Assembly (NCBI GenBank): GCA_021296475.1
Contig: JAGWAJ010000004.1
Span: forward strand, 58,937-92,192
Direction: 5' to 3'
DNA from: Acidobacteriota bacterium
GTDB taxonomy: Bacteria > Acidobacteriota > Vicinamibacteria > Vicinamibacterales > UBA8438
DNA length: 33,256 bases
The notes below the pieces were generated by a model. That model worked only from the letters and a program-made list of their open reading frames with translations, did not search any database and was not told where the DNA came from. Below, piece after piece: positions 12,693 through 32,547 of the stretch (its first letter is position 1; the number at the start of each line of letters is the position of its first letter). The position numbers and the translations under genes were made by a program.

Positions 12693-12759
12693 TCCAACGG
12701 CGCAGACCCCTCGCCCGCAACGCCGGCAGGAGTCCGCGCCGTTCCGCGGCGCAGATTCC
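12693..12759 (+). repeat. Copy C of the intergenic palindromic repeat, with a degenerate half copy upstream
   Basis: The 31-base core is 12729-12759: GGAGTC arm, GCGCCG (12736-12741), TTCCG, CGGCGC (12747-12752), GATTCC arm. It folds as a 12-bp stem with one G-T pair and one internal mismatch. It is about 27/31 identical to the core at 32464-32494 (minus). Its last base is inside the htpG stop codon (12759-12761). A right-half-like piece, CGGCGCAGACCCC at 12698-12710, lies just upstream. It may also serve as the convergent terminator. Confidence 0.65.
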
Positions 12760-14696
12760 TAGGCGCCGGGCGTCCAGATGCGCGACTTCGGCTGCCCTGC
12801 CAAGGTCAGCATCAGGGTGTTCAGCCGCTTGACGAAGCCCGCCGGATCGTCGAGCCGCCCCCCCTCGGCCAGCAGCGCCTGGTCGAAGAGGATGTGGCTC
12901 CAGTCCTCGAACCGGCCGTCGTCGGTTTCATCGGTGAGGCGGTTCACGATCGGGTGATCCGGATTGATCTCCAGGATCAGCGGCACGTTCGGCACGTCCT
13001 GCCCCGCCGCACGAAGCAGCCGTCCCAGGTTGGCGCTCATCCCGTCCTGGTCGGTCACCAGACAGGCCGGCGACTCGGTGAGCCGATCCGAGACGCGGAC
13101 CTCCTTCGCCTTCTCGCCGAGCACCTTCCGCATCCGCTCGACGACCGGCCGGTAGTCGTCCGCGGCCGCCTCCCGGGCGTCGTCCCCGTCTCCCGCCAGC
13201 GCCCCAAGATCGAGGTCGCCCTGCGCCACCGACTGCAGCGGCCTGCCCTCGAACTCCCGGAGGTGGGTTACCACCCATTCGTCGACCCGGTCGTGGAGCA
13301 GCAGGACCTCGATGCCCTTCTTGCGGAAGACCTCCAGGTGAGGGCTGTTCCGCGCCGCGGCGAAGCTCTCCGCGGTGACGTAGTAGATTCGCTCCTGCCC
13401 CTCCTTCGCGCGGGCGAGATAGTCGGCGAACGACACCGTCTGGTTGGGACGGTCCGTGTGGGTGGACGCGAACCGGAGCAGCTTCGCGATGCGCTCCCGG
13501 TTGCCCGCGTCCTGTCCGACGCCCTCCTTCAGGACCTGACCGAACTCGCGCCAGAAGTCGGCGTAGCGATCGGACTCGTCCGCGGCCAGATCCTCGAGGA
13601 GCCCGAGCACGCGCTTGACCCCGGCCGCGCGGATCGCGTCGACATCGCGGGAGTCCTGCAGGATCTCGCGCGACACGTTCAGCGGCAGGTCGTTCGAATC
13701 GATGATGCCGCGCACGAAGCGCAGCCACGCCGGCATCAGCTCCGTCGCGCCGTCCATGATGAACACGCGGCGCACGTACAGCTTGATGCCGTGGCGCTGC
13801 TCGCGGTCCCACAGGTCGAACTGCGCGCGGCGCGGAACGTAGAGCAGCAGCGTGAACTCCTGCCGTCCCTCGACACGGGCGTGGGTGTGGGCCAGGGGCG
13901 GCTCGAAGTCATGCGCGACGTGCTTGTAGAACTCCTGGTACTGCGCCTCCGTGATCTCGGACTTGGCCCGCGCCCACAGCGCGGACGCCTGGTTGACCCG
14001 CTCGGTGGCGTCGACGGTCCCGGTGTCCACCTGCTTGCCGGCCGCCTCCTCCTTCCGCATCCGGATCGGGATCGTGATGTGGTCCGAGTACTTGCGGAGG
14101 ATCGACCTCAGGCGCGAGCCGTCCAGGAGCTCGTCCTCGCCCTCCCGGAGGTGCAGCGTCACCTCGGTCCCGCGCGCCTCGCGGACGGCCGGCTCGATGG
14201 TGTAGTCCCCCTGGCCCGCGCTCTCCCAGCGGACCCCGTCCGCGGCGGCCAGGCCCGACCGCCGCGTCGTCAGCACGACGCGCTCGGCGACGATGAATGC
14301 CGAGTAGAACCCGACACCGAACTGGCCGATGAGCTGCGTGTCCGTCGGTCGATCGCCCGTCAGCTTCTCGACGAACTCCCGCGTCCCCGACTTCGCGATG
14401 GTGCCGATGTTGTCGATCACCTCCTGACGCGACATGCCGACCCCGTTGTCGCGGACCGTGATCGTGCGCGCGTCCGGATCCGACCGGACATGGATGGCAA
14501 GGTCCGGTTCGTCCTCGAGCAGCGCCGGGTCCGTGAGCGCCTCGAACCGCAGCTTGTCACATGCATCGGACGCGTTCGAGACGAGCTCCCGGAGGAATAT
14601 CTCCTTGTTCGAGTACAGGGAATGGACCATCAGATCGAGCAGTTGACGGGCCTCGGTCTGGAAGGTGTGCGTGGTGCGTTCCGGCGTCTCCGACAT
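12759..14696 (-). CDS. htpG: Chaperone HtpG (Hsp90)
   Basis: 645 residues, full length for bacterial Hsp90. The N-terminal GHKL ATPase shows [20 protein letters not shown] with the catalytic Glu and Mg-binding Asn, [20 protein letters not shown], and [16 protein letters not shown] (ATP lid). The middle domain carries the conserved YVRRVFIMD and [11 protein letters not shown] with the catalytic-loop Arg. The C-terminal dimerisation domain ends in IWTPGA without a eukaryotic MEEVD tail. It is an ATP-driven chaperone dimer in the cytoplasm. GGAGG lies 11 bases before the ATG, a long spacing. No CIRCE or sigma-32 box is evident in the 61-base gap shared with rpsT. Confidence 0.95.
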
Positions 14697-14719
14697 CCTG
14701 CCGCGCTCCTCCGTTGGGT

Positions 14720-14748
14720 TTGCCCAGGGTCTTCGATTTCAGTATAGT
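14720..14748 (+). promoter_or_regulatory. Promoter of rpsT, apparently giving a leaderless mRNA
   Basis: -35 TTGCCC (14720-14725), a 17-base spacer, then -10 TATAGT (14743-14748). Only 9 bases separate the -10 box from the rpsT ATG (14758), so the expected start of transcription falls within about 3 bases of the start codon. No Shine-Dalgarno-like sequence lies between. Confidence 0.55.
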
Positions 14749-14757
14749 CAACCGTTT

Positions 14758-15039
14758 ATGGCCAATCACAAGTCTGCAGTAAAGGCCCACCGTCGCAGCC
14801 TCGAACGTCGCGACCGCAACCGTCAGTACCGCAGCCGGATGCGGCGGGCTCTCCGGTCGATGCGGACGGCGATGGACGCCGCGACCGCGTCGGACGGCGG
14901 GGGCTCGACGGACGCGCTCCGCGAGCAGTTTCGTTCGACCGTCTCCCTGATCGACCGGCTGGCGGGCAAGGGCATCATCCACGTCAACACGGCATCCCGC
15001 TACAAGGCGCGTCTCAACAAGCGCCTCGTAGCCATTTAG
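14758..15039 (+). CDS. rpsT: 30S ribosomal protein S20
   Basis: 93 residues beginning MANHKSAVKAHRRSLERRDR, the standard S20 opening, followed by a basic three-helix-bundle sequence and the conserved end GIIHVNTASRYKARLNKRL. S20 is a primary 16S rRNA-binding protein placed at the base of the 30S body. The acidic/Gly patch TASDGGGSTDA between helices is slightly longer than usual. The reading frame is open upstream, but the ATG at 14758 gives the exact family start. No ribosome-binding site is visible and the promoter is so close that a leaderless transcript is likely. It is convergent with holA, and the repeat unit begins at its stop codon. Confidence 0.95.
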   Translation: MANHKSAVKAHRRSLERRDRNRQYRSRMRRALRSMRTAMDAATASDGGGSTDALREQFRSTVSLIDRLAGKGIIHVNTASRYKARLNKRLVAI

Positions 15040-15124
15040 CCCACCCTTCGTCGCCTGACGGCTCCACCGGTGCCCAACCAACCCTGCTCGGAGTCTGCAC
15101 CGTTCTAGGGCACAGACTCCGAGC
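15037..15124 (+). repeat. Copy A of the intergenic palindromic repeat (about 88 bases), also the rpsT/holA convergent hairpin
   Basis: Homology with copy B (minus 32461-32547) begins at the rpsT stop codon TAG and includes an identical 18-base block, TCGTCGCCTGACGGCTCC (15048-15065). The 31-base core is 15090-15120. Here it sits in a perfect 12-bp hairpin, GCTCGGAGTCTG (15086-15097) with CAGACTCCGAGC (15113-15124), with a 15-base loop. The holA stop codon (15105-15107) is in the loop and the right arm is holA coding sequence. No T-run follows, so terminator function is only inferred. Confidence 0.7.
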
Positions 15125-16121
15125 GCCGTTCGGCTCGGCGCTCCGGCCTTCGTCGCGCCTGAGCGCGCCGCGCGTCGTTGCGCAGCGCCGGATCCGAACC
15201 CACTCCGCACAGCTCTACCACGAGGCGCTCGATGAGCAGGCGCGGCTCGCCCGCAGAGCGCTTCAGGTCCGTGTCCGTGCGGAACACGGCGTCGATCGCC
15301 GCCCGCACGCGGACGGCAGGAACCTTGGACCGCGCCACCCAGGCGAGCTTGCCGAGCAGCATCTGCGGCACCGCGCCGCCCTCGAGCGCCATCCCGACCT
15401 CGCGGAGCGCCACGTCCGCCGCCCCGCGCTCGATGGCGCGCGTCACCGCCCAGTCGTCGTGGGCCACCGGCGGTCCGGCGAGTGCTGCGACGTCGGCCAG
15501 GGTCACCGCCGGCTGATCGGCGGCGTAGAGGAGGATGCGGTCGACCTCCCGCCGCAGGCGGCCGATGTCCGGGCCGACCATCGCGGCCAGCGTCCGCGCG
15601 ACCGCGCGATCGACTTCCTTGCCGCTCTCCCGAAGGCGCGCCAGGACCCAGCGCTGCGCGTCGGCCACGGTGGCGACGCCTGCGCAGCGGACGACGGTGG
15701 CCCCGGCGAGGAGCCGCTTGCTCGCCCGGCGCTGCTCGTTGAGCCCGGCCGCGACGAAGACGAGCGTCGCGTGGGGGGCGGGGGCGTCGACGTAGGCTTC
15801 GAGGGCGACGAGGTCATCGGCCGCGGCGCGGCTCTCGCGCTTCGGCTGCAGCCAGCGCTCGGCGTGCAGCGCCACCACGACCCGGCGCGGCGCCATCATC
15901 GGCAGGGTGCGGGCCGCGTCCAGAACCGCCGCGAGCGGTCCCTCCCCGCCATGGAAGCGCTCGCAGTTGAAGACGCGCACGCCCTCGTCGACGATCGCCT
16001 CGAACGCCGCGACGAGCGCGGCCTTCTCGTGCTCGTCATCGCCGAGCAGTACGTACACGGGAGCCGGCTCGCCGGATGCGAGCCGGTCGCGCAACGCCGC
16101 GGGAGCGACCGTGCCGGCCAC
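15105..16121 (-). CDS. holA: DNA polymerase III subunit delta
   Basis: 338 residues, close to the E. coli delta length. The N-terminal AAA+-like domain has PVYVLLGDDEHEK, then RVFNCERFHG and AARTLPMMAPRRVVVA, typical of HolA. The middle has MVGPDIGRLRREVDRILLY, the delta counterpart of the lid region, and the C-terminal collar helices hold VPQMLLGKLAWVARS. Delta opens the beta sliding clamp within the clamp loader. I chose the GTG at 16121: AGGAG lies 4 bases upstream, it is 7 bases after the lptE stop, and it aligns with family N-termini; the open frame to 16196 overlaps lptE. The Arg-rich tail (ARRAQARRRPERRAERRSE) overlaps the palindromic repeat. Confidence 0.9.
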   Translation of the reverse strand: MAGTVAPAALRDRLASGEPAPVYVLLGDDEHEKAALVAAFEAIVDEGVRVFNCERFHGGEGPLAAVLDAARTLPMMAPRRVVVALHAERWLQPKRESRAAADDLVALEAYVDAPAPHATLVFVAAGLNEQRRASKRLLAGATVVRCAGVATVADAQRWVLARLRESGKEVDRAVARTLAAMVGPDIGRLRREVDRILLYAADQPAVTLADVAALAGPPVAHDDWAVTRAIERGAADVALREVGMALEGGAVPQMLLGKLAWVARSKVPAVRVRAAIDAVFRTDTDLKRSAGEPRLLIERLVVELCGVGSDPALRNDARRAQARRRPERRAERRSESVP

Positions 16122-16128
16122 CGGACTC

Positions 16129-16701
16129 CTAGAACGCTTCGAGGATGGAGCTGACGACGGTGGTGGCGAATTCGGATGCCATGCGCTCGACCGCATTGCT
16201 CCGCTGTCCGAAGAATGCCGACGCGTTGGTGACGTCGCCGGCCCCCGAGGCCACGTCGTACTCCTCGCTGAAGACGAGGCTCGGGTTGTCCCAGATGACC
16301 TCGTTCGTCGTCAGGTCGACGAACTCGATGGCCGCGGTGAGGGTGAGCACGTAGCGCGATGCCTGCTGCTCGGCGCTGAAGCTCGCCGGCTGGATGTTGA
16401 TGTTGCTGATCGTGCCCGACAGGAGCGCCTGGGCGTCCGATTCGTCGGTCTGGACGCGGTACGATCCGCGCGCGATGAACGCCGTACGGACCTCCTGGGT
16501 CAGGAGCCGCTCGACCTCGAAGACCGGCGTCCGGTTCTCGAACATCGGAATCCCGATGGTCTCGACGTAGTCGGGCAGGAAGGAGCCCCGGCCGGCCAGG
16601 GTGTAGCCGCAGGAGCTGCCGCCGAGCGCGAGCAGAAGCATGGCCGCGGTCCAGCCCGCGGCGGATCGGAACCCGAAGGGCGCGGTCGTCGTGTGCAACA
16701 T
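16129..16701 (-). CDS. lptE: LPS-assembly lipoprotein LptE-like
   Basis: 190 residues. A hydrophobic signal (AAGWTAAMLLLALGGSS) precedes Cys31, then CGYTLAGRGSFLPDYVETIG and IPMFENRTPVFEVERLLTQE, the characteristic LptE N-terminal pattern. The remainder is strand/helix mix with EVIWDNPSLVFSEEY. LptE plugs the LptD barrel that delivers LPS to the outer leaflet of the outer membrane. The residue three before the Cys is Gly rather than the usual Leu, so the lipobox is weak. The ATG shares its first base with the last base of the leuS stop (TGATG), implying translational coupling. This gene is the best evidence here for an LPS-type outer membrane. Confidence 0.8.
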   Translation of the reverse strand: MLHTTTAPFGFRSAAGWTAAMLLLALGGSSCGYTLAGRGSFLPDYVETIGIPMFENRTPVFEVERLLTQEVRTAFIARGSYRVQTDESDAQALLSGTISNINIQPASFSAEQQASRYVLTLTAAIEFVDLTTNEVIWDNPSLVFSEEYDVASGAGDVTNASAFFGQRSNAVERMASEFATTVVSSILEAF

Positions 16702-19325
16702 CAGTGCTCTCCCCCCCGCTGCGCGGGCGCCGGTCGGGTCACGACGTTGACGAGGCGGCGCGGAACGACGATCACCCGCACCACCTGCTGGCCCGCTGTG
16801 CGGGCCTGTACGTGAGGGTCGGCGAGCGCCAGGCGCTGCACCTCGGCCTCGGCCGTCTCCACCGGCACCGACAGGTGCGCGCGGACCTTGCCGTTGACCT
16901 GCACCGGGAGCTCCAGCTCCTCGGCGCGCGCGATGTCGGGATCGAACTCCGGCCAGCCGGCCGCGGTGACTCCGCCGGCGTGTCCGATCGACTCCCACAG
17001 CTCCTCGGCGAGATGCGGCGTGAACGGCGCCAGCATCAGAATCAGCGCCTCGATCGCCTCCCGCACCACGCCGAGCGCCCCGGCCGGCGCATCGGGCCCC
17101 GGGGCCGCCTCGCCGGAAGCGCCGGCGAACGGCCCCAGCCGTGTCCGCTCGCAGTAGGCGTAGGTCTCGTTGACCAGCTCCATGAGGGCGGAGACGGCGG
17201 TGTTGAGGTGCACCCGCGGGTCGAGATCGTCCGATACGCGGCGGATCGTCTCGTGGGTCTTGCGACGCAGCGCCCGCTCGGCCGCGCCGAGCCGCGGCGC
17301 CGGCGCGGCGGATGCAGCCCCCACGGCGCCTCCGGCCCCCGCGGTGCTTCCGGCGCCGGCCGCGAACGCCGGCGCGAACGGCGTGACCAGGCGCCAGACG
17401 CGCCCCAGATAACGCGCGCTCCCCTCGAGGCCCGCGTCGGTCCACTCGATCTCCTTCTCGGGCGGAGCGACGAACATCTCGTAGAGGCGCAGGGCATCCG
17501 CGCCGTACGTGGCCGTCATCTCGTCCGGATCGACCACGTTCCCCTTGGACTTCGACATTACCGCGCCGTCGCGCAGCACCATGCCCTGCGTCAGCAGCCG
17601 CGTGAACGGCTCGTCGTGGGTCACCAAGCCGAGGTCCCGCATCACGCTGCACACGAACCTCGAGTAGATCAGGTGCAGGATGGCGTGCTCGACGCCGCCG
17701 ATGTAGAAGTCGACCGGGGCCCAGTACCGCACCGACTCCGGACGGAACGGCGCGGTCCGGTTGTGCGGATCGCAGAAGCGGTAGAAATACCAGGAGGAGT
17801 CGACGAACGTGTCCATCGTGTCCGTCTCCCGCCGCGCCGCCGCGCCGCAGCTCGGACAGCGCGCCGACACGAACTCCGACACCTGCGCGAGCGGGGAGTC
17901 GCCGCGCCCCGTGAAGACCTCGACGTCGGGAAGCTCCACCGGGAGATCCTCGTACGCCACGGGGCGAACTCCGCACGCGTCGCAGTAGACGATCGGGATC
18001 GGCGTGCCCCAGTAGCGCTGGCGCGAGATGCCCCAGTCCTTCAAGCGGTACTGGACCTCGCCACGACCGATGCCCCGCGCTTCCGCGGCGCGCGTCATGG
18101 CCTTGACGGCCTCCGCGCTCGGCAGCCCCGAGAACTCCCCCGACGCGACCACCGTCCCCGGCGCCGACGAGGCGGCCTCCAGCGTCTCCCCCGCGAGCCG
18201 TGGACCTGTGTCCGGCTGAATCACGACCCGCACCGGAAGTCCGTACTTGCGCGCGAACTCGAAGTCGCGCTGATCGTGGGCGGGCACGGCCATGATGGCG
18301 CCCGTTCCGTAGTCGGCCAGGACGAAATTGGCGACCCAGATCGGAACGGCCTCGCCCGTGAAGGGGTTGCGCGCCCGGCGGCCGGTATCGAACCCCTCCT
18401 TCTCGAGCTGCCCCGTCAAGCGGGCCATGCGATCGAGCGCCCGGAAGCGCCCGACGCGGTCCCGGAATCCCGCAGCGTCGGGGCTCTCGTCGGCCAGTCG
18501 ATCGACGAGCGGATGCTCCGGCGCGAGCAGCACGAAGGTGGCTCCGTGGATGGTGTCGATGCGCGTCGTGAAGACTTCGATCGCATCGTTGCCGGCCGTG
18601 TCCGAGCCGCCCGCGGCGAGAAGCGCGAACCTGACCCGGGCCCCCTCCGAGCGCCCGATCCAGTTCTGCTGCATCGTGAGCACCTTGCGGGGCCAGGCCT
18701 CGAGGCCCCCGATGCGATCGAGCAGCTCGTCCGCGTACTGCGTGATGCGCAGGAACCACTGCTCCAGGTCGCGCGCCTCCACCCCGGCTCCGCAGCGCCA
18801 GCACCCGCCCTCCACCACCTGCTCGTTGGCCAGCACGGTGCGGCACCCAGGGCACCAGTTGACGGACGAACGCTTCCGGTAGGCGAGGCCCCGCTCGTAC
18901 ATCTTCAGGAACAGCCACTGGTTCCAGCGGTAGTAGTCGCGGTCGCACGTGGCGAACTCGCGCTCCCACGCATAGCCGATGCCGAGGCGCTGGAGCTGGC
19001 TCTTCATGTGCGCGATGTTCGCGCGGGTCCAGCGCTCCGGATGCGACTCGTTCTTGATCGCCGCGTTCTCGGCCGGCATGCCGAACGCGTCCCAGCCGAA
19101 GGGATGCAGCACGTTGCAGCCGCGCATCCGCTTCATGCGGGCGATCACGTCGCCGATCATGTAGTTGCGCACGTGGCCGACGTGCGCGTGGCCGGACGGA
19201 TACGCGAACATCACCAGGCAGTAGTACTTCGGGCGGGACGGGTCTTCCGTGACCTCGAACGCCCGCTCCTCGGACCACCGCCGCTGCCACTTCCGTTCGA
19301 TGGTCTGCGGGTCGTAGTCGTGCAC
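16701..19325 (-). CDS. leuS: Leucyl-tRNA synthetase
   Basis: 874 residues from the GTG at 19325. The class I HIGH motif is HVGH in [32 protein letters not shown] follows. The zinc knuckle is seen in [15 protein letters not shown] and CWRCG. The CP1 editing domain has [13 protein letters not shown] and [19 protein letters not shown] with the editing Asp. The KMSKS loop is VMSKSKGN. Two Ala/Gly/Pro-rich stretches ([20 protein letters not shown] and [14 protein letters not shown]) look like local expansions in the anticodon-binding region. The frame is open to a TTG at 19370, one base after the HDAC stop, but [13 protein letters not shown] is where family members start. Neither start has a clear ribosome-binding site, so the start is uncertain. 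Confidence 0.93.
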
Positions 19326-19371
19326 TGGAATCGATAGGGCGCCGGAGTGGCGCCAGCGTGCCGCCGTCAAC

Positions 19372-20406
19372 TCATAGTGTAGGCCAAAAGGCCCGCAGGG
19401 CCGGCCGCACCGCCGCGAGCGCCGCGTCGGCCGCGGGGGTCGCTCCGTCCAGGCTCGCGATCGCTCCGGGAGACGCGCCCGCGGCGACCTCCAGCGTGCC
19501 CTCCAGGCACGCCTCGAGGGCGGCGAGGTCGTAACCTCCCTCCGTGACCACCGCCAGCCGCCCGCGGCAGCTCCGCTCCGCGGCCGCGCGCAGGCGCCGG
19601 GTGAGCGTCGCGTAGCCCCCGGTCGTCACCCGCATCCCGCCGAGCGGGTCGTCGACGTGCGCGTCGTACCCGGCCGACAGCACGATCAGCTCGGGGTCGT
19701 AGGCGGCCAGCACCGGGGCCGCGACCTCCCGGAAGACGCGATCGAGGTCGGCGTCGCCTGCCCCCGCCGCGAGCGGGATGTTGACGGTGAAGCCCGCCCC
19801 GTCGCCGCGTCCCACGTCGTCGGCCGCCCCTGTGCCCGGATAGAAGGGGTACTGATGCGTGGACAGGTAGAGCACGCGCGGGTCGTCGTAGAAGATCCAC
19901 TGCGTGCCGTTTCCGTGGTGCACGTCGTAGTCGACGACCGCGACCCGCTCGAGCCCCCGGTCGAGCGCGTGGGCCGCGGCGACCGCCGCGTTGTTGTATA
20001 GGCAGAAGCCCATCGCCCGCTCCCGCTCCGCGTGGTGGCCCGGCGGCCGGACCAGGGCCAGGGCGATCGCGTCGCCGTCGAGGGCGTGGTCGACCGCCGC
20101 CAGCGCCGCGCCGGCCGCCAGGCGGGCGATCGCCTCCGATTCCGGCGCGGCGTAGGTGTCCGGATCCAGACGCACCCGGCGTCCGGCCGTCGAGCCGATG
20201 GACCGCACGTAGCCCGCTGCGTGCACGCGCTCGAGCGCCGCGTCGGACACCACCCGCGGCTCCGCCGTGCGGCCGCCGCGGGACCGCCAGCGCGACAGGA
20301 CCGCCGCCATCACGTCCGCCCGCTCGGGACGCTCCGGATGTCCGGCCGGGGTCGCGTGATCGCGGAAGCGCTCCGAACCGATCACCAGCACTTCGCTCGT
20401 GGCCAC
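19372..20406 (-). CDS. Histone deacetylase-family (AcuC/acetylpolyamine amidohydrolase-like) zinc deacetylase
   Basis: 344 residues. All catalytic landmarks of the arginase/deacetylase fold are present: [16 protein letters not shown] with the His-His pair at 124-125, [13 protein letters not shown] with zinc ligands D161 and H163, SAGYDAH with zinc ligand D248, and EGGYD with the transition-state Tyr292. Such enzymes remove acetyl or acyl groups from protein lysines or polyamines. Substrate choice cannot be read. The start is a GTG at 20406 with GGAGG 6 bases upstream; the open frame beyond it includes a 13-base tandem repeat and is not coding. It lies downstream of the DUF374 gene and 46 bases before leuS. 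Its place beside acyl-CoA/ETF genes hints at acyl-lysine turnover, which is only inference. Confidence 0.87.
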
Positions 20407-20418
20407 AGCGCCCTCCTC

Positions 20419-20457
20419 TTCCTGCCTCGCGTTCCTGCGTCGCGTTCCTGCGTCGCG
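20419..20457 (-). repeat. Three tandem 13-base repeats upstream of the deacetylase gene
   Basis: The plus-strand unit TTCCTGCGTCGCG occurs at 20432-20444 and 20445-20457, and with one mismatch (TTCCTGCCTCGCG) at 20419-20431. The array fills most of the 62-base gap between the DUF374 stop and the HDAC-family start and ends next to that gene's ribosome-binding site. Confidence 0.8.
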
Positions 20458-20468
20458 GCGGACCCGCC

Positions 20469-22807: not shown

Positions 22808-22835
22808 GTCGACGTCGAGCGTTTCGCGATCCAGC

Positions 22836-23831: not shown

Positions 23832-23865
23832 CCTTCACCGAAAAGCGGCCGGGAACCGACCGCCG

Positions 23866-24636: not shown

Positions 24637-25877
24637 GAGTCTTCGTACCTCTTGAGGAGCAGGCTGGCGTTGGTGCCGCCGAAGCCGAACGAGTTGGAGA
24701 GGGCGTAACCGATCGGCAGCGGCCGGATCTCGTGCGGAACGTAGTCGAGATCGCAGTCGGGATCGGCGTGGTCGAGATTGATGGTCGGCGGGGCGGCCTG
24801 CTCCCGGACCGCGAGCGCGGTGATGCCCGCTTCGAGCCCGCCGGCGGCCCCGAGCAGGTGCCCCGTCATCGACTTGGTCGACGAGATGGCGACGGTGGAC
24901 GCGTGCGGGCCGAAGCAGCGCTTGATGGCGAGCGTCTCGAGGCGGTCGTTGTAGGGCGTCGAGGTTCCGTGAGCGTTGATGTAGTCGACCTGCTCGGGAG
25001 CGACCTCGGCCTGCTCGAGCGCCGCGCTCATCACGCGGACCGCGCCGTCGCCGTCCTCGGCCGGCGCCGTCACGTGGAAGGCGTCGGCCGACATCCCGTA
25101 GCCCACCAGCTCCGCGTAGATGGACGCGCCCCGCCGCCGGGCGCGCTCGAGTTCCTCGAGCACGACGACACCGGCGCCCTCGCCGATGATGAACCCGTCG
25201 CGATCCCGATCGAACGGGCGGCTGGCGCGTTGCGGCTCGTCGTTGCGTGTCGAAAGAGCACGCATCGCCGCGAACCCACCCACGCCGAGGGGCGTGATCG
25301 CGGCCTCGGAGCCGCCGGCGATCATCGCCTCGGCCGAGCCCCGCCGGATGATCTCGAAGGCGTCGCCGATCGCGTGGGCAGATGCCGAGCAGGCGGTGCA
25401 GGTGGCGGAGTTCGGCCCGCGTGCGCCGAACCGAATGGAGACCTGTCCCGCGGCGAGATTGATGATTGCGGAGGGAATGAAGAACGGCGAGATCTTGCGG
25501 GGCCCGCCCCGCAGCAGGGACTGGTGCTCGCGCTCGATCGTGCTGAAGCCGCCGATCCCCGAGGCGATGAACACGCCCACGTCGGGGCCGAGCGGCTGCG
25601 ATGTCTTCAGGCCGGCGTCACAGATGGCGAACTCCGACGCTGCAATGGCGTACTGGATGAAGACGTCCATCTTCTTGACGTCCTTCCGGTCGACGAACTG
25701 CAGCGGGTCGAAGCCCTTGACCTCGCCGGCGATACGGGAGGCGAAGGCGGATGCGTCGAAGTGCGTGATCGCGCCGATGCCGCTGCGACCGGCGCAGAGC
25801 GCCTCCCATGTCGGCTCGGTCCCGATACCGAGCGACGACACCAGCCCGACTCCGGTCACGACGACGCGCCTCTGCAA
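24633..25877 (-). CDS. fabF: Beta-ketoacyl-ACP synthase II
   Basis: 414 residues. The thiolase-fold catalytic triad sits at the same numbers as in E. coli FabF: Cys163 in [11 protein letters not shown], His303 in [11 protein letters not shown] and His340 in [15 protein letters not shown], with Lys335. The C-terminal [10 protein letters not shown] loop is intact. It condenses malonyl-ACP with acyl-ACP during chain elongation. The start is a TTG at 25877 ([11 protein letters not shown]), supported by AGGGGAG 7 bases upstream and by family alignment. It follows acpP after 31 bases, and its stop overlaps etfB. Confidence 0.95.
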
Positions 25878-25908
25878 ACGGTGTCTCCCCTGGAACCCCG
25901 ATCGCCGT

Positions 25909-26211
25909 CTAGCTTTCGTCGGTCGATTCGGATTCCGCCGCCTTGCCGGATTCGGATTCCTGGTCGCCGCCGGTCTTGCGTCCCGCGTGCGACTCGATGT
26001 ACGCCACGGCCTCCCGGACGCGAGTGATCTTCTCGGCGTCCTCGTCGGGGATGTCGAGCTTGAACTCTTCTTCGAGCTGCATGACCAGCTCGACGGTGTC
26101 GAGCGAGTCCGCGCCCAAGTCCTCTACAAAGGACGCATCCGGCGTAACCTCGTCCTCGTCGACGCCCAAGTGCTCGACGATGATCTCCTTGACCTTGTCA
26201 GCAACCGCCAT
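25909..26211 (-). CDS. acpP: Acyl carrier protein with an extended acidic tail
   Basis: 100 residues, against the usual 77-80. The core is a standard [23 protein letters not shown], then [20 protein letters not shown] with the phosphopantetheine Ser36. After helix IV (VAYIESHAG) comes a Ser/Glu-rich tail of about 22 residues ([15 protein letters not shown]). It carries growing acyl chains between the Fab enzymes. AGGAGG lies 8 bases before the ATG and overlaps the fabG stop codon. The tail is probably disordered and its function is unknown. Confidence 0.95.
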
Positions 26212-26223
26212 GCAACCAGCCTC

Positions 26224-26994
26224 CTACATGTACATCCCACCGTTGACGCCGAGGACCTGCCCCGTAATATACGACGCTTCGTCGGATGCGAGAAAGCAGA
26301 CCGCGGCCGCCACATCGTCCGGTCTTCCCATTCGTCCCTGCGGAATCTGCCCCGCCATCGCCTCCCGCGCGCGTCCGTCGAGCCCGGCGATCATGTCGGT
26401 GTCGATCATCCCCGGGGCGACGACGTTGACCGTGATGCCGCGCGCGGCCACCTCGCGCGCCAGCGATTTCGTGAACCCGGTGAGCCCCGCCTTCGTGGCC
26501 GCATAGTTCGCCTGCCCCGGGTTGCCGGACTGCCCGACGACGGAGCCGACGTTGATGATGCGCCCGGAGCGCTGCTTCAGCATCGGCCTCAGCACGGCCT
26601 GGCAGCAGGTGAACGTGCCGGTCAGGTTCGTGGCGAGCACCGCGTCCCATTCCGCCGGCTTCATGCGCACCGTGAGCTGATCGCTCACGATCCCCGCGTT
26701 GTTGACCAGGATGTCGATCCGGCCGAAGCCCGCCGTCGCCGCCTGCACGGCGCGCCGCACGCTGTCCGCGTCGGTCACGTCGAGGCCGACGTGCGTCGCC
26801 GTGCCGCCTGCCTTGACCGCCTCGCGGGCGACGTCCTCCGCGTGGTCCGCCCGGGCGCCGGCCACGACGGACGCACCGGCCGCCGCCAGCCGCAACGCCA
26901 CCGCGCGACCAATCCCCCGGGAGGCGCCGGTCACCAGCGCCACGCGGCCCGCCAGATCTATCATGCCCGACGGCCCGGCCGGTCCTGCCGTCAT
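26224..26994 (-). CDS. fabG: 3-oxoacyl-ACP reductase
   Basis: 256 residues, a short-chain dehydrogenase/reductase. The NADPH-binding TGASRGIG is at 22-29, NNAG at 98-101, and the catalytic Ser151 (NVGSVVG), Tyr164 and Lys168 (YAATK) are intact. The end VNGGMYM is the usual FabG C-terminus. It reduces 3-oxoacyl-ACP in the elongation cycle. The ATG at 26994 overlaps the fabD stop (ATGA), which argues for this start although Met11 (MIDLAGRVALVTG) would match the family length better. Confidence 0.95.
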   Translation of the reverse strand: MTAGPAGPSGMIDLAGRVALVTGASRGIGRAVALRLAAAGASVVAGARADHAEDVAREAVKAGGTATHVGLDVTDADSVRRAVQAATAGFGRIDILVNNAGIVSDQLTVRMKPAEWDAVLATNLTGTFTCCQAVLRPMLKQRSGRIINVGSVVGQSGNPGQANYAATKAGLTGFTKSLAREVAARGITVNVVAPGMIDTDMIAGLDGRAREAMAGQIPQGRMGRPDDVAAAVCFLASDEASYITGQVLGVNGGMYM

Positions 26995-27923
26995 GATTCC
27001 GCCAACAGGGCCTGCGCCGCCTCGAGGCTGCGGGGGTCGCCGACCTGCGCGACCCGCGCGGTGGGCAGCGTCTGTCGGATGAGGCGGCTCAGCACCTTGC
27101 CGGGCCCGATCTCGATGAACGTGGTCACCCCATCGGCTGCCATGCGCCGCACCACCGCTTCCCACTGCACCGGCGCGCTCACCTGGCGAATGAGGGCGTC
27201 GACCGCCTCCGCCGCCCGACGCTTCGGCTCGGCGTCCACGTTCGCCACCACCGGCACTGCGGGATCGGCGACGACGAGCGCCCTGAGGTCCCGCGCCAGC
27301 CGCTCTTCGGCGGGCTTCATGAGTGCGCAGTGGAAGGGGGCGCTGACGTCGAGCGGCAGCACGCGGCGCGCCCCGAGCTCGCGCGCCCGCTTCCCCGCGC
27401 GCGCCACCGCACCTTGCGCCCCCGCAATGACCACCTGACCGGGCGCGTTGATGTTCGCCACGCTGACCACCTCGCCGACGGCCGCTTCGGCGCAGGCCTG
27501 ACCGACCCGCTCCGTCTCCAGCTCGAGGACCGCAGCCATCGCTCCCTCGCCGACGGGGACCGCCTCCTGCATGTAGGCACCGCGGCGGCGCACCGTGCGC
27601 AGCGCGTCGGCGAAGCCCAGGGTCCCGGCCGCTACGTGCGCGGAGTACTCGCCGAGGCTGTGACCGGCCACCATCGCCGGAGCATGACCCCGTGACGCGA
27701 GCAGGCGATGAGCGGCGATGCTCAGCGCGAGCACCGCCGGCTGCGTGTTCTCGGTGAGCGCGAGCTGCTCCGCCGGGCCCTCGAAGCAGAGGCGACTGAG
27801 CGGTTCGCCGAGCACGTCGTCGGCCTGCTCGAGCGCCTCCCGGAACACGGGGTGCGCGGCCGCAAGCGCCTTCCCCATGCCGGCGCGCTGCGAGCCCTGG
27901 CCCGGAAACACGAACGCGATCAT
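26991..27923 (-). CDS. fabD: Malonyl-CoA:ACP transacylase
   Basis: 310 residues. The N-terminal FPGQGSQRAGMG, the nucleophile elbow GHSLGEYSA (Ser89), RRGAYMQEAV with the malonate-binding Arg, and PFHCALM (His198) are all in place. It loads malonyl groups onto ACP. The ATG at 27921-27923 fits the family start (MIAFVFPGQG), but no ribosome-binding site is visible. It is followed by fabG with a four-base overlap. Upstream is an 88-base gap to rpmF where plsX and fabH would usually be found; the gap holds no gene. Confidence 0.95.
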   Translation of the reverse strand: MIAFVFPGQGSQRAGMGKALAAAHPVFREALEQADDVLGEPLSRLCFEGPAEQLALTENTQPAVLALSIAAHRLLASRGHAPAMVAGHSLGEYSAHVAAGTLGFADALRTVRRRGAYMQEAVPVGEGAMAAVLELETERVGQACAEAAVGEVVSVANINAPGQVVIAGAQGAVARAGKRARELGARRVLPLDVSAPFHCALMKPAEERLARDLRALVVADPAVPVVANVDAEPKRRAAEAVDALIRQVSAPVQWEAVVRRMAADGVTTFIEIGPGKVLSRLIRQTLPTARVAQVGDPRSLEAAQALLAES

Positions 27924-28011
27924 TGGCAGTCCAGCGCTCTGACCGCGCCGGCGGCCAGGCGAAGCAGGGTCACGGGTGGGTCGGGTGGAGGAACTGGAGG
28001 TACGCGAAAGC

Positions 28012-28194
28012 TCACTCTTCCTTGACCGCCCGCACCTGCCGGCCGCGGTAGTACCCGCAGTGTGGACAGACCACGTGCGGCAGCTTCGGCTCGTGACACT
28101 GCGGGCACTCGCCGCGCCCGGCCGGCGTCAGCGCGTCGTGCGCCCGTCGCTTCGCCGTCCGCGCCTTGGAATGTCGTCGCTTGGGATTCGCCAT
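28012..28194 (-). CDS. rpmF: 50S ribosomal protein L32
   Basis: 60 residues: MANPKRRHSKARTAKRRAHD opens a typical L32, followed by a zinc ribbon with CPQC and CPHC. All four Cys are present, the zinc-binding form. The ATG at 28192-28194 has CAGGA about 9 bases upstream. The open frame upstream overlaps yceD and is not coding. The yceD-rpmF pair, 13 bases apart, is a conserved arrangement near fatty-acid genes in many bacteria. Confidence 0.95.
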   Translation of the reverse strand: MANPKRRHSKARTAKRRAHDALTPAGRGECPQCHEPKLPHVVCPHCGYYRGRQVRAVKEE

Positions 28195-28207
28195 CCTGTC
28201 GTCCTGC

Positions 28208-28786
28208 TCAGTCCTCTTCCGAGCCCCCGCGTGCCGGCCGATAGGCACGCAACGCCTCGAGGCGCGGGTCGCGCCACTCCGTCTCGCACTCGCAACGCTC
28301 CGCGTTCCTGTCGATCCCGCACACCGTGCACAGGCCCCGGCACGAGGCCCGGCAGAGCGGCTTCATCGGCACCGCGAGCTGGAGCTGCTCCCGGATCAGG
28401 TGCCCCAGATCGAGCTCCTCGTCCCGATAGAACGCGGTGCTCAGGTCACCGTCCCCGATCTCGAATTCGCCCTCGCCGGTGTTCGCCCGCTGCGGCAGAT
28501 ACAGGACGTCGAGGTCGACCGCGACCGGCAAATCGAAACGCGCCAGGCACCGCGAGCAGGCGAGCTCCAACGCCGTGCCGAGCCCGCCGCGCAACCGGTA
28601 GCTGTCGCCGTCGCGGTGTATCGCGAGGGCCAGCCGCACCGGCCCGGCGACCGCGTAGTCGTCAGCCGGGCCGGCCGGAAACAGGCCGCTCGAGAACGCA
28701 CGGTCGAACCGGTCCTCCCCCCTGCGCAACGCGCGCAGGTCGAGGAGCAGCGACCCACCCGCCCCGGAGCGACCTTCCCCTGGCAC
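28208..28786 (-). CDS. YceD / DUF177 family protein
   Basis: 192 residues from a GTG at 28786, with GGAG about 7 bases upstream. DUF177 features are ALELACSRCLARFDLPVAVD in the middle, then HLIREQLQLAVPMKPLC with CRASCRGLCTVCG. The Cys pairs could bind metal. YceD homologues are linked to 23S rRNA accumulation and to L32/ribosome assembly in bacteria and chloroplasts. The pairing with rpmF supports the call. Its 5' region is overlapped by the out-of-frame extension of the frameshifted dGTPase gene. Confidence 0.88.
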   Translation of the reverse strand: MPGEGRSGAGGSLLLDLRALRRGEDRFDRAFSSGLFPAGPADDYAVAGPVRLALAIHRDGDSYRLRGGLGTALELACSRCLARFDLPVAVDLDVLYLPQRANTGEGEFEIGDGDLSTAFYRDEELDLGHLIREQLQLAVPMKPLCRASCRGLCTVCGIDRNAERCECETEWRDPRLEALRAYRPARGGSEED

Positions 28787-28813
28787 CCTGAAACTCCACG
28801 GGCGAACCAGAAA

Positions 28814-29877
28814 CTATACCACGCCGGAGCCGCTCCGCTCGCCCCACGAGCGGGGGACGAACAGCTCCTCAAGCGATCCGTCATCCCCGCCAGGAAATCC
28901 CGCGACGCGACGTCGAGACCGTCGCGCTCGAGGGTGGCGCGGTCGAGGAAGCGCGCGGGCTCGCTGCGGACCCTGCTCCAGAGACTCTCGAGAATGCCGG
29001 CGACCTTGCCGAACTCGGCCGTCGCGGCGTCGTTCTCGTAGACGGCGGCGAAGAGGAACTCCCGGAGCGTCAACGTCGCCTCGAGCACCTCCCCGCTCAT
29101 GCCGATCTCCGGTGCCTCCGGCCGCCGCACGCTCTGCTCGACGACGTCGGTCACCATCCGGCCGATCCGCTCCGACGAGGAACCCCCGAGCACTTCGACC
29201 GCCTCGGCCGGGAGACTCGTCGCCTGCAGGATTCCGGCGCGCATCGCGTCGTCGATGTCGTGATTGACGTACGCGATGATGTCGGCCACGCGCGCCACCT
29301 GTCCCTCCAGAGTCGCCGCGCGCCGCTCCGGCGCGGCCCCCACCGGTGCTCCTCGCTTGCCCTTGGAGTGCTTCGCGATCCCGTCGCGAACCTCCCAGGA
29401 GAGGTTCAGCCCGCGACCGCCGCGCTCGAGCACGTCGACGATGCGCAGGCTCTGCTCGTAGTGGTTGAAGCCGCCGGGCGCGAGCCCGCGCAGCACCCGC
29501 TCGCCGGCGTGCCCGAACGGCGTATGACCCAGATCGTGGCCGAGCGCAATCGCCTCGGTGAGCTCCTCGTTGAGGCGCAGCACCTTGGCGATCGTGCGTG
29601 CGATCTGCGAGACCTCGAGCGTGTGCGTGAGCCGCGTCCGGTAGTGGTCGCCGGTCGGAGCGAGGAACACCTGGGTCTTGTGCTTCAGCCGGCGGAACGC
29701 CTTCGAATGCACGATTCGATCGCGATCCCGCTGGAAGGCGGGCCGAATCGGATCCTCCGCCTCCGGACGCAGGCGCCCGCGGCTCTCGCTGGCCCGCGCC
29801 GCCCACGGCGCCAGGGTGTCGTGCTCGCGGGCCTCGAGCCGCGCGCGCAGGGCGCCCGCAACCGGTGGATCGGACAT
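28814..29877 (-). CDS. dGTP triphosphohydrolase-like HD-domain protein, apparent one-base frameshift near its 3' end
   Basis: The protein begins MSDPPVAGALRARLEAREHD. HD-superfamily residues are intact: LTHTLEVSQIAR (H85), ALGHDLGHTPFGHAGERVL (H114, D115) and YVNHDIDDAM (D207). Such enzymes hydrolyse dNTPs to nucleosides and triphosphate. After GMTDR, about residue 334, the frame runs on as LRSCSSPARGASG and stays open to 28441, across the yceD start. In the next frame the expected ending ELFVPRSWGERSGSGVV stops at 28814, 27 bases before yceD. Adding one T to the TT at 28871-28872 restores MTDRFEELFVPRSW and a 354-residue protein. As written, the uninterrupted frame is 28441-29877 (478 aa). 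GGAG lies 7 bases before the ATG. Whether this is a mutation or an assembly error cannot be decided here. Confidence 0.85.
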
Positions 29878-29892
29878 GACGGGGCTCCGAGC

Positions 29893-30141
29893 CTACGGAG
29901 CGCCGCGCGGGGCGCCGGTAGCGAAGGGACGAATCGAGGCTATGGCGTGCTTGAAGAGCATGTGATCCGCCCCGTCGTGCTCCACGAGAACGGAGAAGCG
30001 GTCGAAGCTCTTGATGCGGCCGTCGACCTCCGTCCCGTCCATGAGGCGGATGACCACCTGCAGCCGCTCGCGGCGTGCGCCGTTGAGGAACGTCTCCTGC
30101 AGGTGCGAGACAGGCGCTGGGGCGTCACCGCGGCTCGACAT
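29893..30141 (-). CDS. hfq: RNA chaperone Hfq
   Basis: 82 residues with the Sm fold. The Sm1 region reads LQETFLNGARRERLQVVIRL followed by MDGTEVDGRIKSFDRFSVLV, and Sm2 has LFKHAIASI in place of the common (Y)KHAI. There is almost no C-terminal tail beyond the Sm core. Hfq hexamers bind sRNAs and mRNA A/U-rich sites. The position next to miaA is the classic miaA-hfq arrangement, which strengthens the call. The ATG at 30141 lies inside the end of miaA (17-base overlap). Confidence 0.9.
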   Translation of the reverse strand: MSSRGDAPAPVSHLQETFLNGARRERLQVVIRLMDGTEVDGRIKSFDRFSVLVEHDGADHMLFKHAIASIRPFATGAPRGAP

Positions 30142-31102
30142 CGGCTTGGGTCGGCTCCACGTCGACGAGGCTGCCGAGGACGGCCGGCAGCGCGTCCCGA
30201 TGCTCGCCAGGAACCCGGATCCAGCGTAGATTAGGTTCTTTGCGGAACCAGATCAACTGCCGCCGCGCGTAGCGCAGGTTCTCGCGCACGATCAGCTCGC
30301 GGGTGGCCCGCTCGTCGCGCTCTCCCCGCAGGTGCTCGATGACCTGCCGGTAGACGAGCCCGCCGAGCGGGTGCGCGTCCTCGGGAAGGCCGGCGGCGAG
30401 GGCCGCGCGCACCTCCTCGAGCAGGCCCGCGGCGAACTGCGCCTCCACGCGGGCCTCCACGCGGCGCGCCGTGTCGGCCGACGGGAGCCGGATGGCGAAG
30501 CCCGACACGGCGTAGTCGGCGAGCGGCGATCGTGTCCGGGCGAAGTGCTCCGTGAGTGGCCGGCCGGTGAGCCGGAACACCTCGAGGGCTCGAATCAGGC
30601 GCTTCTCGTCCCGCGGCTGGATCCGCTCCGCCGACTCGGGATCGATTCGCGCCAACGCTCGCCGCAGGCAGTGCAGGCCGCGCCGGCGGGCTACGCGCGC
30701 CAGACGCCCGCGCAGGGCATCGTCCCGGCCGGGTCCCGGAAACAGGCCGCGGGTGAGGGCACGATAGTAGAGGCCGCTCCCGCCGACCACGATCGGCAGC
30801 CGCCCCCGACGGCTGATGTCCCGGACGGCGGTCGCCGCCGCCCGGGCGTAGCGCGCGGCCGAGTAGCGCTCCGTCGGCTCGACCACGTCGACAAGGTGGT
30901 GCGGCACGCCCCGCCGCTGGCTCGGCGGCAGCTTGTCGGTCCCGATGTCGAAGCCGCGGTAGACGGCGGTCGAGTCGCAGCTTACGACCTCGCCTCCGAG
31001 GCGCCGCGCGAGCGCGACCCCGAGCGCACTCTTCCCGGACGCGGTCGCGCCGACGATGGCAACCACCCGCGGCCGGTTGCGGGTCAGGCGAGGCGCAGCC
31101 AC
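30125..31102 (-). CDS. miaA: tRNA dimethylallyltransferase
   Basis: 325 residues. The P-loop GATASGKS is at 18-25, followed by SCDSTAVYRGFDIGTDKLPP, HHLVDVVEPTERYSAARY, VVGGSGLYYRAL and QPRDEKRLIRALEVFRLTG, all MiaA signatures. RYARRQLIWFRKEPNLRWI closes the tRNA-binding part. It adds the dimethylallyl group to A37 of tRNAs reading UNN codons. The start is a GTG at 31102 without a clear ribosome-binding site; a GTG at residue 13 (VAIVGATASGKS) is an alternative. The end overlaps hfq. Confidence 0.93.
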   Translation of the reverse strand: MAAPRLTRNRPRVVAIVGATASGKSALGVALARRLGGEVVSCDSTAVYRGFDIGTDKLPPSQRRGVPHHLVDVVEPTERYSAARYARAAATAVRDISRRGRLPIVVGGSGLYYRALTRGLFPGPGRDDALRGRLARVARRRGLHCLRRALARIDPESAERIQPRDEKRLIRALEVFRLTGRPLTEHFARTRSPLADYAVSGFAIRLPSADTARRVEARVEAQFAAGLLEEVRAALAAGLPEDAHPLGGLVYRQVIEHLRGERDERATRELIVRENLRYARRQLIWFRKEPNLRWIRVPGEHRDALPAVLGSLVDVEPTQADVEPR

Positions 31103-31179
31103 CGGAGGATGACCAGGGCCAGCAGTAGCGTCAGGAGGACCAGCCAGCCGAGCTGCTGCGCCCGCGTGGGAAGCGGCAT
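31084..31179 (-). CDS. Candidate single-helix membrane peptide (31 aa, or 53 aa from an upstream GTG)
   Basis: The ATG at 31179 gives MPLPTRAQQLGWLVLLTLLL followed by ALVILRWLRLA, a clean 18-20 residue transmembrane helix with flanking basic residues. An in-frame GTG at 31245 would add a hydrophilic 22-residue lead (REGSHGSPPADGSNRRPRQH). The ORF lies in the 165-base gap between the tonB-like gene and miaA and overlaps the miaA start by 19 bases. No ribosome-binding site is visible, and leucine-rich frames arise easily in high-GC DNA, so this is only a candidate. Confidence 0.35.
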   Translation of the reverse strand: MPLPTRAQQLGWLVLLTLLLALVILRWLRLA

Positions 31180-31267
31180 CGAGTGCTGACGGGGGCGCCG
31201 GTTGCTGCCGTCCGCCGGGGGTGAGCCGTGCGACCCCTCCCGCACGGCGGGGCTCGCCGGGCGTCCG

Positions 31268-32404
31268 TCAGGCCCGCGGCGGCGATTCGTTGAAGTAGAA
31301 GGTAATCGTGAAGAACGCCTCGTCGTCCGGGTACTCCTCCGGGAGCGGCCGGGTCGGATTGGAGGACTTCAGCGCGTTGAAAGCCGAGTTCGTGAACGCG
31401 TCGACCGCGGACGGCCGCCGCACCGTCAGCCCCGTCATCGTCCCGTCCCGGTGCACGTAGAACGTGAGCTGGACGTTCCCGTGCATGCTGAGCGCGGCAT
31501 AGGGAATGAACCAGTTGCGCCGGATCTGCGCGATGAAGCGGCGCAGCCACGGGCCGAACTCCACGCCCTTGGTGTCGAACTGAATCCATGGGGCGAACCG
31601 GTCGGTGTCGCCGTAGACGTTGCCGAAGCTCTCGCGCCGCACGTAGCGACCGAGGTCCTGCAGCGTGCCTCCGAGCAGGCCGTCCGCGAAAAGATCGCTC
31701 CGTGGGTTGGGCGGATCCGGATCCCGGCGGCTCCGGCTCCGCCGCGGGACGGTCAGCGCCCCGTCGGCGAGGAGCTCCGCCGTGCTCCGATCCATTTCCT
31801 CCGCCGGCTCCTCGTAGTCCTCGGGCTCGTCCGGCTCCGGTTCGTCCGACTCCTCCACGCTCTCGGACGGAGGCACGTCGGCCGCGGCAGCGAGCAGGTC
31901 GTCGACCCTCGGATCGGGGTCGGGCGTCTCCGACGGAGCCGGCGAGCTGGCGTCGGCCGGCACTCCGATGCGGGGCTGGTCGTCGAGGGTGTCGCTCGGG
32001 TCCTCGGCCTCGACGAAGTCGATCGAGTTTCCGCGGGCGTTCGGCAGCCGGTTCCTGGGGTCGCGGGACGCGAAGGGCGACTGGGCGCGGCGATCCTGGT
32101 CCGACAGCGGGGCGTCGGGGCGCGCATCCGGCGCCTCGAGATCGACGCGCGGCTGGACGAAGATGAACGGCCGGTCCGATTGCGGAGCCTGCATCTGCGC
32201 CTGCGCGAGCATCTCGGCCTGCTCCGCAAGGCGCTCCGCGCGCCGGGCCTCGGCGTCGCGCACAAACGCCAACTGCGGCACGAACAGGACCGCGAGCACG
32301 ACCAGGAGGTGGATCAGCCCAGACAGCAGGACCTGCTCGCGCCACGACATCGCCGAATCGACGGTCGGCGTGTCGAAGCAGCGGTCCTCAAGGTCGAACA
32401 ACAT
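31268..32404 (-). CDS. TonB/TolA-like energy-transducing protein
   Basis: 378 residues. A short cytoplasmic N-terminus is followed by one membrane helix (about 24-46, LLSGLIHLLVVLAVLFVPQL). A long disordered periplasmic linker comes next: Ala/Gln/Glu-rich, then strongly acidic around residues 180-205 (ESDEPEPDEPEDYEEPAEEM). The C-terminal TonB-type domain is RRFIAQIRRNWFIPYAALSM, NVQLTFYVHRDGTMTGL and NSAFNALKSSNPTRPLPEEY. Such proteins use ExbBD or TolQR proton force to work on the outer membrane. No exbB/exbD is adjacent. The linker is acidic rather than the usual Pro/Lys type. The ATG is at 32404, with only a weak AGG upstream. Confidence 0.78.
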   Translation of the reverse strand: MLFDLEDRCFDTPTVDSAMSWREQVLLSGLIHLLVVLAVLFVPQLAFVRDAEARRAERLAEQAEMLAQAQMQAPQSDRPFIFVQPRVDLEAPDARPDAPLSDQDRRAQSPFASRDPRNRLPNARGNSIDFVEAEDPSDTLDDQPRIGVPADASSPAPSETPDPDPRVDDLLAAAADVPPSESVEESDEPEPDEPEDYEEPAEEMDRSTAELLADGALTVPRRSRSRRDPDPPNPRSDLFADGLLGGTLQDLGRYVRRESFGNVYGDTDRFAPWIQFDTKGVEFGPWLRRFIAQIRRNWFIPYAALSMHGNVQLTFYVHRDGTMTGLTVRRPSAVDAFTNSAFNALKSSNPTRPLPEEYPDDEAFFTITFYFNESPPRA

Positions 32405-32437
32405 GAAGGGCCTGATCGGACTACGGGATCCCCGACG

Positions 32438-32446
32438 AGTATAGCA
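32438..32446 (-). promoter_or_regulatory. Probable extended -10 promoter for the tonB-like gene
   Basis: On the minus strand TGC precedes TATACT (32438-32443), an extended -10 about 35 bases before the ATG. The -35 position falls on the right arm of repeat copy B, which shows no TTGACA-like match. Confidence 0.5.
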
Positions 32447-32460
32447 GCGTCCCCGGGTTT

Positions 32461-32547
32461 CCGGGAGTCGGCGCCGTGGAACGGTGCGGACTCCCGTAGG
32501 CACGGCTGGGCGCCAGGCGGAGCCGTCAGGCGACGATTGGCGGGCTA
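32461..32547 (-). repeat. Copy B of the intergenic palindromic repeat (about 87 bases)
   Basis: On the minus strand homology to copy A starts at the menG stop codon TAG (32545-32547), includes the same 18-base block TCGTCGCCTGACGGCTCC (32519-32536), and ends in the 31-base core at 32464-32494. The outer stem is CGGGAGTC with GACTCCCG (8 bp); inner GCACCG faces CGGCGC with one mismatch. It lies between menG and the tonB-like promoter and could also terminate menG transcripts. Confidence 0.7.

Follow-up and report, generated by a model that had tools for sequence, protein, structure and literature searches.

Three short palindromes that recur within 33,256 nt of bacterial DNA raise the question of what kind of element carries them and how that element spreads. 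The stretch, hereafter the window, corresponds to positions 58937-92192 of contig JAGWAJ010000004.1 (C155; assembly GCA_021296475.1) in G000, a Vicinamibacterales metagenome-assembled genome (MAG) of 3.17 Mb in 160 contigs and 85% complete. A preliminary description had reported three intergenic cores of exactly 31 nt with a GGAGTC left arm and a GAYTCC right arm, and we confirm their length, positions, strands and arms, the cores of copies 1 and 3 differing at 4 of 31 positions. The observations below make it likely that these cores are parts of non-autonomous mobile repeats, a family that occupies intergenic DNA, inserts at TA dinucleotides and is probably moved in trans.

Copy number and distribution

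When the 16-nt half-core GGAGTCYGCRCCGTTC was searched for in the window with up to three mismatches, 11 matches were obtained, as compared with 3.8 ± 1.9 in shuffled sequences, none of 100 of which reached 11. Across the whole genome, with up to two mismatches, 205 matches stood against 12 for a reversed control pattern, and covariance model R1, with which 150 candidates were scored, identified at least 142 copies. The preliminary description had expected many more copies and had named the lack of a genome-wide excess over controls as grounds for abandoning the idea; with these half-core counts that objection falls away.

The family is restricted to a single lineage. Three congeners carry 117-136 copies each, three genomes of genus g5 at least 150 each, genomes of genus g2 from 71 to at least 150, and G022 of genus g7 carries 92; G016 has one copy and G009 one weak match. 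The covariance model found zero copies in six other genera of the family, so that carriers occupy 4 of its 10 genera, and 13 of the 149 genomes of the order were positive, all in this one family. In a scan of one genome per species (85,000 species), only Vicinamibacteria/Acidobacteria MAGs were among the matches listed, and viral contigs gave no match. The nearest copy came from the same genome 42 times, as compared with 15.7 expected, and amplification is lineage-specific. The sole G016 copy (locus L188, about 5900-6030, contig C29) is found where a duplicated gene ends, with no recognisable transposase adjoining; its palindrome is unusually long (GACGACTAGGAGTC...GACTCCTAGTCGTC) and takes in the last codons of the gene.

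Architecture and fold of the element

The 31-mer is not the whole unit. Sequence around 30 initial copies from G000, together with 108 loci from other genomes, shows that it is the 3′ hairpin (H2) of a compound element of about 83 nt, the 5′ half of which is a second hairpin (H1) joined to the core by a CCAACCAACCCTGC linker in the layout TA-GCCC-H1-CCAACCAACCCTGC-GGAGTCYGCRCCGTTCTACGGCGCAGACTCC-TA. Within the window, the gaps around the cores had been described as otherwise unrelated, which proved wrong for copies 2 and 3: about 50 nt upstream of their cores are also alike (inverted repeat I11, 88% over 32 nt) and represent this 5′ half. In these loci, 144 copies have both halves, and a relaxed search returned 63 cores and 39 first halves standing alone, several of these being weak or chance matches. 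The orientation of the core relative to H1 is fixed (130:3), and tandem copies have a TA in common and form direct arrays with a period of about 85 nt (L001, L015, L018, L024, L028). The first base of the element is G and the last is C. Its ends are otherwise unrelated, reading GCCCRCC at the 5′ end and, inward from the 3′ end, GGAGTCYGC, without terminal inverted repeats.

With respect to folding, an alignment of 62 full copies was compared with slid pairing partners and shuffles. H1 comprises 9 bp, an internal loop and an inner stem of 3 bp, and H2 comprises 15 pairs. Standard pairs are kept in 86% of cells, as compared with at most 40% for slid partners, and stems changed on both sides 83 times, as compared with 34 in shuffles; since the shuffle control retains the relatedness of the copies, this evidence for pairing is strong but without tree correction. 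From one subfamily to another, the outer H1 stem is exchanged as a whole (CACCA/TGGTG, CGCCAA/TTGGCG, CGGGAA/TTCCCG and CGCCCA/TGGGCG), and a CGTC motif is conserved within the H1 internal loop. Moreover, G001-G003 contain a sister family of identical layout that differs in the core stem by a compensatory double change, reading GGAGCT...AGCTCC as against GGAGTC...GACTCC. On the right, the palindrome continues beyond the core only marginally, over the first two bases of the flank. An alternative pairing preferred by RNAalifold, between GGCTCC of H1 and GGAGTC of the core, is near-invariant and without covariation, and was not adopted. No window match reached the gathering score of an Rfam family.

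Two further features of the fold were recorded. A mismatch in the core stem is nearly constant (columns 69/87 and 72/84 of alignment A1), TGCA opening one pair, CGCG the other and CGCA both, and the palindrome is therefore strand-asymmetric. The sister family, with many matches in G001-G003, has the TA-flanked two-hairpin form CTAGCGCCGCCAACCCGTCGCAGGCTCCGGGTCGGCCCCAGCC...GGAGCTTGCGCC...GGCGCAAGCTCCTAG (L052, L060, L070, L076, L081, L086, L103, L114, L118, L125, L233 and L262).

Mobility and target site

Comparison of occupied and empty loci demonstrates that the element is mobile and duplicates its target TA. Two empty sites are base-exact. In the comparison of the window with L105, the empty sequence CC-TA-CATG stands against the occupied CC-TA-element-TA-GAGG, at the end of a gene that, judged from its last codons only, is presumably fabG; in that of contig C103 of G000 with G003 and G001, CC-TA-CCTC stands against CC-TA-element-TA-GCTG. 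At both there is one TA when the site is empty and two when it is occupied. G001, G002 and G003 lack an element at the site of copy 2, and their S20 gene ends in TGA. At the place of copy 1, G003 has a diverged core and G001 a remnant, and this window copy is older.

The preferred target is CTAG, which is very rare in this genome, what remains of it being chiefly TAG stops and sites between genes. Removal of one TA restored CTAG at 13 of 33 sites in G000 and TAG at 5 more, and the flanks, with a left end of TA, TG or CA and a right start of T-R-G, look as a TA duplication eroded by transitions would. Statistics on CTAG, position and stop codons were drawn from a 758-kb sample of G000 (L149-L187 and the window) with 60 copies, in which genes were called by a purpose-written gene caller. 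CTAG occurs there at 96 sites outside elements, as compared with about 2,000 predicted from base composition (GC 0.709), a roughly twentyfold deficit, and 48% of the noncoding CTAG sites outside elements are TAG stops, which equals the share of copies at stops.

A possible nested insertion was noted in L027 (about 1425-1510, contig C95 of G000), where an unrelated 84-nt repeat (...GTGATTTCGTCAACGATTGCGCGCGATAAACCCATGTCC...) with CTAG on both sides lies between H1 and the core. It resembles a miniature inverted-repeat transposable element (MITE) with a 4-bp CTAG duplication, and related pieces adjoin cores in L120 and L129.

Position at gene ends and stop codons

The copies were mapped against gene ends, as the preliminary description had proposed. 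Most copies (55/60) lie mostly outside genes, in 38 tandem, 16 convergent and 6 divergent gaps, and a gene ends exactly at an end of the element in 29 of 60 cases (through the left TAG in 11 of them, at the right end in the other 18), whereas random noncoding placement averaged 0.67 such cases and never exceeded 6. A gene ends within the core loop at 8 copies, two of which also end a gene at the left TAG. TAG accounts for 40 of 50 stops at elements, as compared with 184 of 631 elsewhere. The genes between neighbouring copies are ordinary chromosomal genes, with 0 transposases among them. All three window copies supply stops, to the genes for S20, HSP90, DNA polymerase III delta and UbiE (Table 1).

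Table 1. Copies of the repeat in the window, their parts and the genes that end in them
Feature	Position	Strand	Basis	Remarks
Copy 2, full element	15039..15120	+	covariance model R1, C155:73970-74061, E=2.6e-11	left TA 15037-15038; right TA mutated to GA (15121-15122)
Copy 2, H1	15042-15072			
Copy 2, linker	15073-15089			
Copy 2, core hairpin H2	15090-15120	+		
Copy 3, full element	32464..32545	-	model R1, C155:91395-91486, E=1.1e-14	left TA 32546-32547 (minus strand)
Copy 3, H1	32511-32542			
Copy 3, linker	32495-32510			
Copy 3, core hairpin H2	32464-32494	-		
Copy 1, core hairpin H2 only	12729..12759	+	model R1, C155:71609-71700, E=2.3e-4	5′ half (about 12673-12728) decayed
rpsT, ribosomal protein S20	14665..15039	+	PF01649, E=1.7e-22	start approximate; TAG stop (15037-15039) consists of the target TA and the G that opens copy 2
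holA-like, DNA polymerase III delta subunit	15105..16121	-	PF06144, E=7.9e-12	TAG stop within the core loop of copy 2
htpG, HSP90	12759..14696	-	PF00183, E=4.5e-128	TAG stop (12759-12761), made of TA and the terminal G of the core, overlaps copy 1 at its right end
ubiE/COQ5 methyltransferase	32545..33249	-	PF01209, E=2.4e-51	TAG stop (32545-32547) supplied by copy 3 at its left end

As the element starts with G and ends with C, TA is followed by G on either strand and a TAG stop is restored, and CTAG targeting together with this tolerance accounts for the stop-codon position without any recognition of stop codons. Specifically, an element inserting into TA, preferably within CTAG, and leaving a TA on each side would recreate CTAG at both of its ends, so that new copies could land beside old ones and give rise to the direct tandem arrays. 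A TAG or TAA stop hit by such an insertion would remain a TAG stop, rendering insertions at gene ends harmless. Insertions in genes or promoters would presumably be purged, leaving the surviving copies at gene 3′ ends. The element would most likely be moved in trans by a transposase or recombinase recognising its folded ends.

Candidate enzymes and alternative explanations

The search for such an enzyme covered Y1/RAYT (PF01797), Y2/IS91, IS630 DDE_3 and IS110, where RAYT denotes the transposases associated with repetitive extragenic palindromic (REP) sequences. The preliminary description had likened the palindrome to REP elements moved by RAYTs while noting that no RAYT gene lies nearby. The latter is correct, as is the REP-like character of a high-copy intergenic family, but the link to RAYT fails genome-wide, and a REP/REPIN-type element moved by a RAYT, a Y1 HUH transposase, is very unlikely even though the repeat is palindromic, present in many copies at gene 3′ ends, associated with TAG stops like GTAG REPs (PMC3733652) and hit by IS110 elements, as REPs are. 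The outer bases of H2 also tend to pair across the foot of the hairpin, which resembles guide/cleavage pairing. Nonetheless, PF01797 is absent from G000 and the element-rich relatives, save one partial match in G019, yet present in several element-poor ones, a distribution that does not fit a driver. The bases left of the core (CTA, CCA, GCA or CCG) give no GTAG consensus, TA stands on both sides, and the arrays are direct rather than inverted. On the complete chromosome OY282382.1, copies are spread over both strands, and no replichore orientation bias, such as an IS200/IS605-type single-strand element would show relative to the replication fork, was seen (at most 24/40 under any assumed origin), with which a weak bias is still compatible. 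TA duplication and the CTAG preference would instead suit a RUP-like MITE that depends on the DDE transposase of an IS630/Tc1-type transposon, RUP itself inserting at TA and being moved by IS630-Spn1 (PMC2229807). We nevertheless regard this origin as rather unlikely, as the element lacks terminal inverted repeats, DDE_3 was not found in five carriers with 92 to at least 150 copies each (G003, G020, G022, G004 and G000), and the ends of the IS630 copies that were found, this being the sole DDE family examined, do not match those of the element. IS630 was accordingly rejected as the driver. So were IS91/Y2 transposases, the distribution of which does not track the repeat, and IS110, which occurs in all element-rich genomes save G004 but also elsewhere and has ends unrelated to the repeat. 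Crude, frame-mixed clustering of open reading frames around the loci yielded no obvious repeated transposase.

Two explanations dispense with mobility as the primary property. A host-functional RNA element, such as a bidirectional 3′-end hairpin or terminator selected at gene ends and spreading as a side effect, would accord with the gene-end position, the compensatory changes, the rarity of divergent gaps (6/60) and the orientation in tandem gaps, where genes mostly read into the core hairpin (28:10, p=0.005). It is unlikely, however, as sister genera of the same family are without the repeat and orthologous genes do without it; the terminator family put forward in the preliminary description is weakened further because the hairpin has no T-tract behind it and none of the three window copies was called as a terminator-like site. 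That description had also suggested a site bound by a nucleoid or segregation protein, and the palindromic form and genome-wide occurrence might speak for it. Such a site is scarcely credible in view of the patchy presence in related genera, the clean, transposition-like insertions and empty sites, the use of both chromosome strands without visible replichore bias, and two hairpins of changing stem sequence, which are unexpected for a double-strand binding site.

Several points weigh against a TA-inserting mobile repeat. Just two empty sites are base-exact, the others being blurred by divergence, and at copy 2 the relatives have TGA rather than TAG or TAA, so the ancestral target is not visible there. 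Of the 33 restored sites, just 18 show TA followed by G and the others have decayed or are non-canonical, and ends that are not inverted repeats are unusual for TA-duplicating transposons. Neither an enzyme nor an autonomous copy was found in the DNA examined, and a domesticated RNA function could likewise select for covarying stems. For the enzyme behind the mobile repeat, a TA-duplicating DDE-type transposase is a reasonable though tentative candidate, something outside the classes named here is equally conceivable, and a single-strand HUH enzyme that has diverged beyond the reach of PF01797/PF04986 appears doubtful. More speculatively, the repeat may represent an undescribed transposition system, in which an enzyme other than Y1, Y2 or IS630 would recognise a folded hairpin pair (single-stranded DNA or RNA) in place of inverted repeats and insert it at CTAG, the element being near-neutral through stops rebuilt on both strands.

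IS110 elements use the repeat as a target, their right ends abutting the linker in L003, L008 and L051. One IS110 transposase (P0001) lies within the repeat in L225 (1-1700, contig C157 of G000), and in L225 and L003, the latter at the end of contig C17, the IS110 right end TTTCACGGCAA abuts linker CCAACCCTGC. The ends of C157 and C17 overlap by 78 identical bases, so these contigs probably join through the IS110-bearing copy. IS110 right ends (GTTTCAYAGCAA) were also seen at or beside CRISPR-like arrays in L243 (about 2640-2900, G024), apparently within a repeat unit, and in L244 (about 3620-3783, G001).

Comparison with known repeats

The repeat is best read as a new family of non-autonomous mobile repeat whose structure falls outside the named REP and MITE classes tested. 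Our literature search, the coverage of which left out most subscription journals, found no such repeats in Vicinamibacter or Acidobacteria; judged by that search, the family adds a well-delimited mobile intergenic repeat to a lineage, the Vicinamibacterales, without described ones. CTAG targeting, G and C ends and TAG stops together offer a simple account of how short repeats come to lie exactly at gene ends, and presence and absence across ten genera of one family give comparative genomics a way to find the moving enzyme, which bears on the spread of repeats that, like CGTC REPs, have no transposase.

In copy number, position and targeting by IS110, the repeat is REP-like, but it fits no known REP type tested. 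Its closest described counterparts are the GTAG and CGTC REPs and the RUP-like IS630 MITEs. Like GTAG-type REP/REPIN sequences with RAYTs, it is short, palindromic, high-copy and intergenic, lies at 3′ ends often with a TAG stop, and is an IS110 target, its IS110 copies in the linker recalling ISPpu9, which sits in Pseudomonas REPs. It differs from them in having no GTAG tag, no Y1/RAYT in nearly all carriers, TA duplication, and two different hairpins in fixed order and direct tandem arrays. GTAG REPs also supply TAG stops, and CGTC REPs are likewise without a transposase (Di Nocera et al. 2013, PMC3733652). With the latter our family has in common a palindromic form, the lack of a dedicated transposase and a conserved CGTC, although here that motif is internal to H1 rather than a terminal unpaired tag, the stem behind it is 3 bp rather than 8-9 bp, and the unit is compound and about 83 nt long. 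RUP and other IS630-derived MITEs are comparable in size (about 100 bp), intergenic location, TA target and copy number (about 100), but the repeat has no terminal inverted repeats and several carriers have no matching IS630. Also comparable are the Caulobacter intergenic repeats (CIR; table in PMC2229807), which are from a different lineage and were compared by description rather than by sequence: they too are listed as intergenic with TA termini, no terminal inverted repeat and an unknown mobility mechanism.

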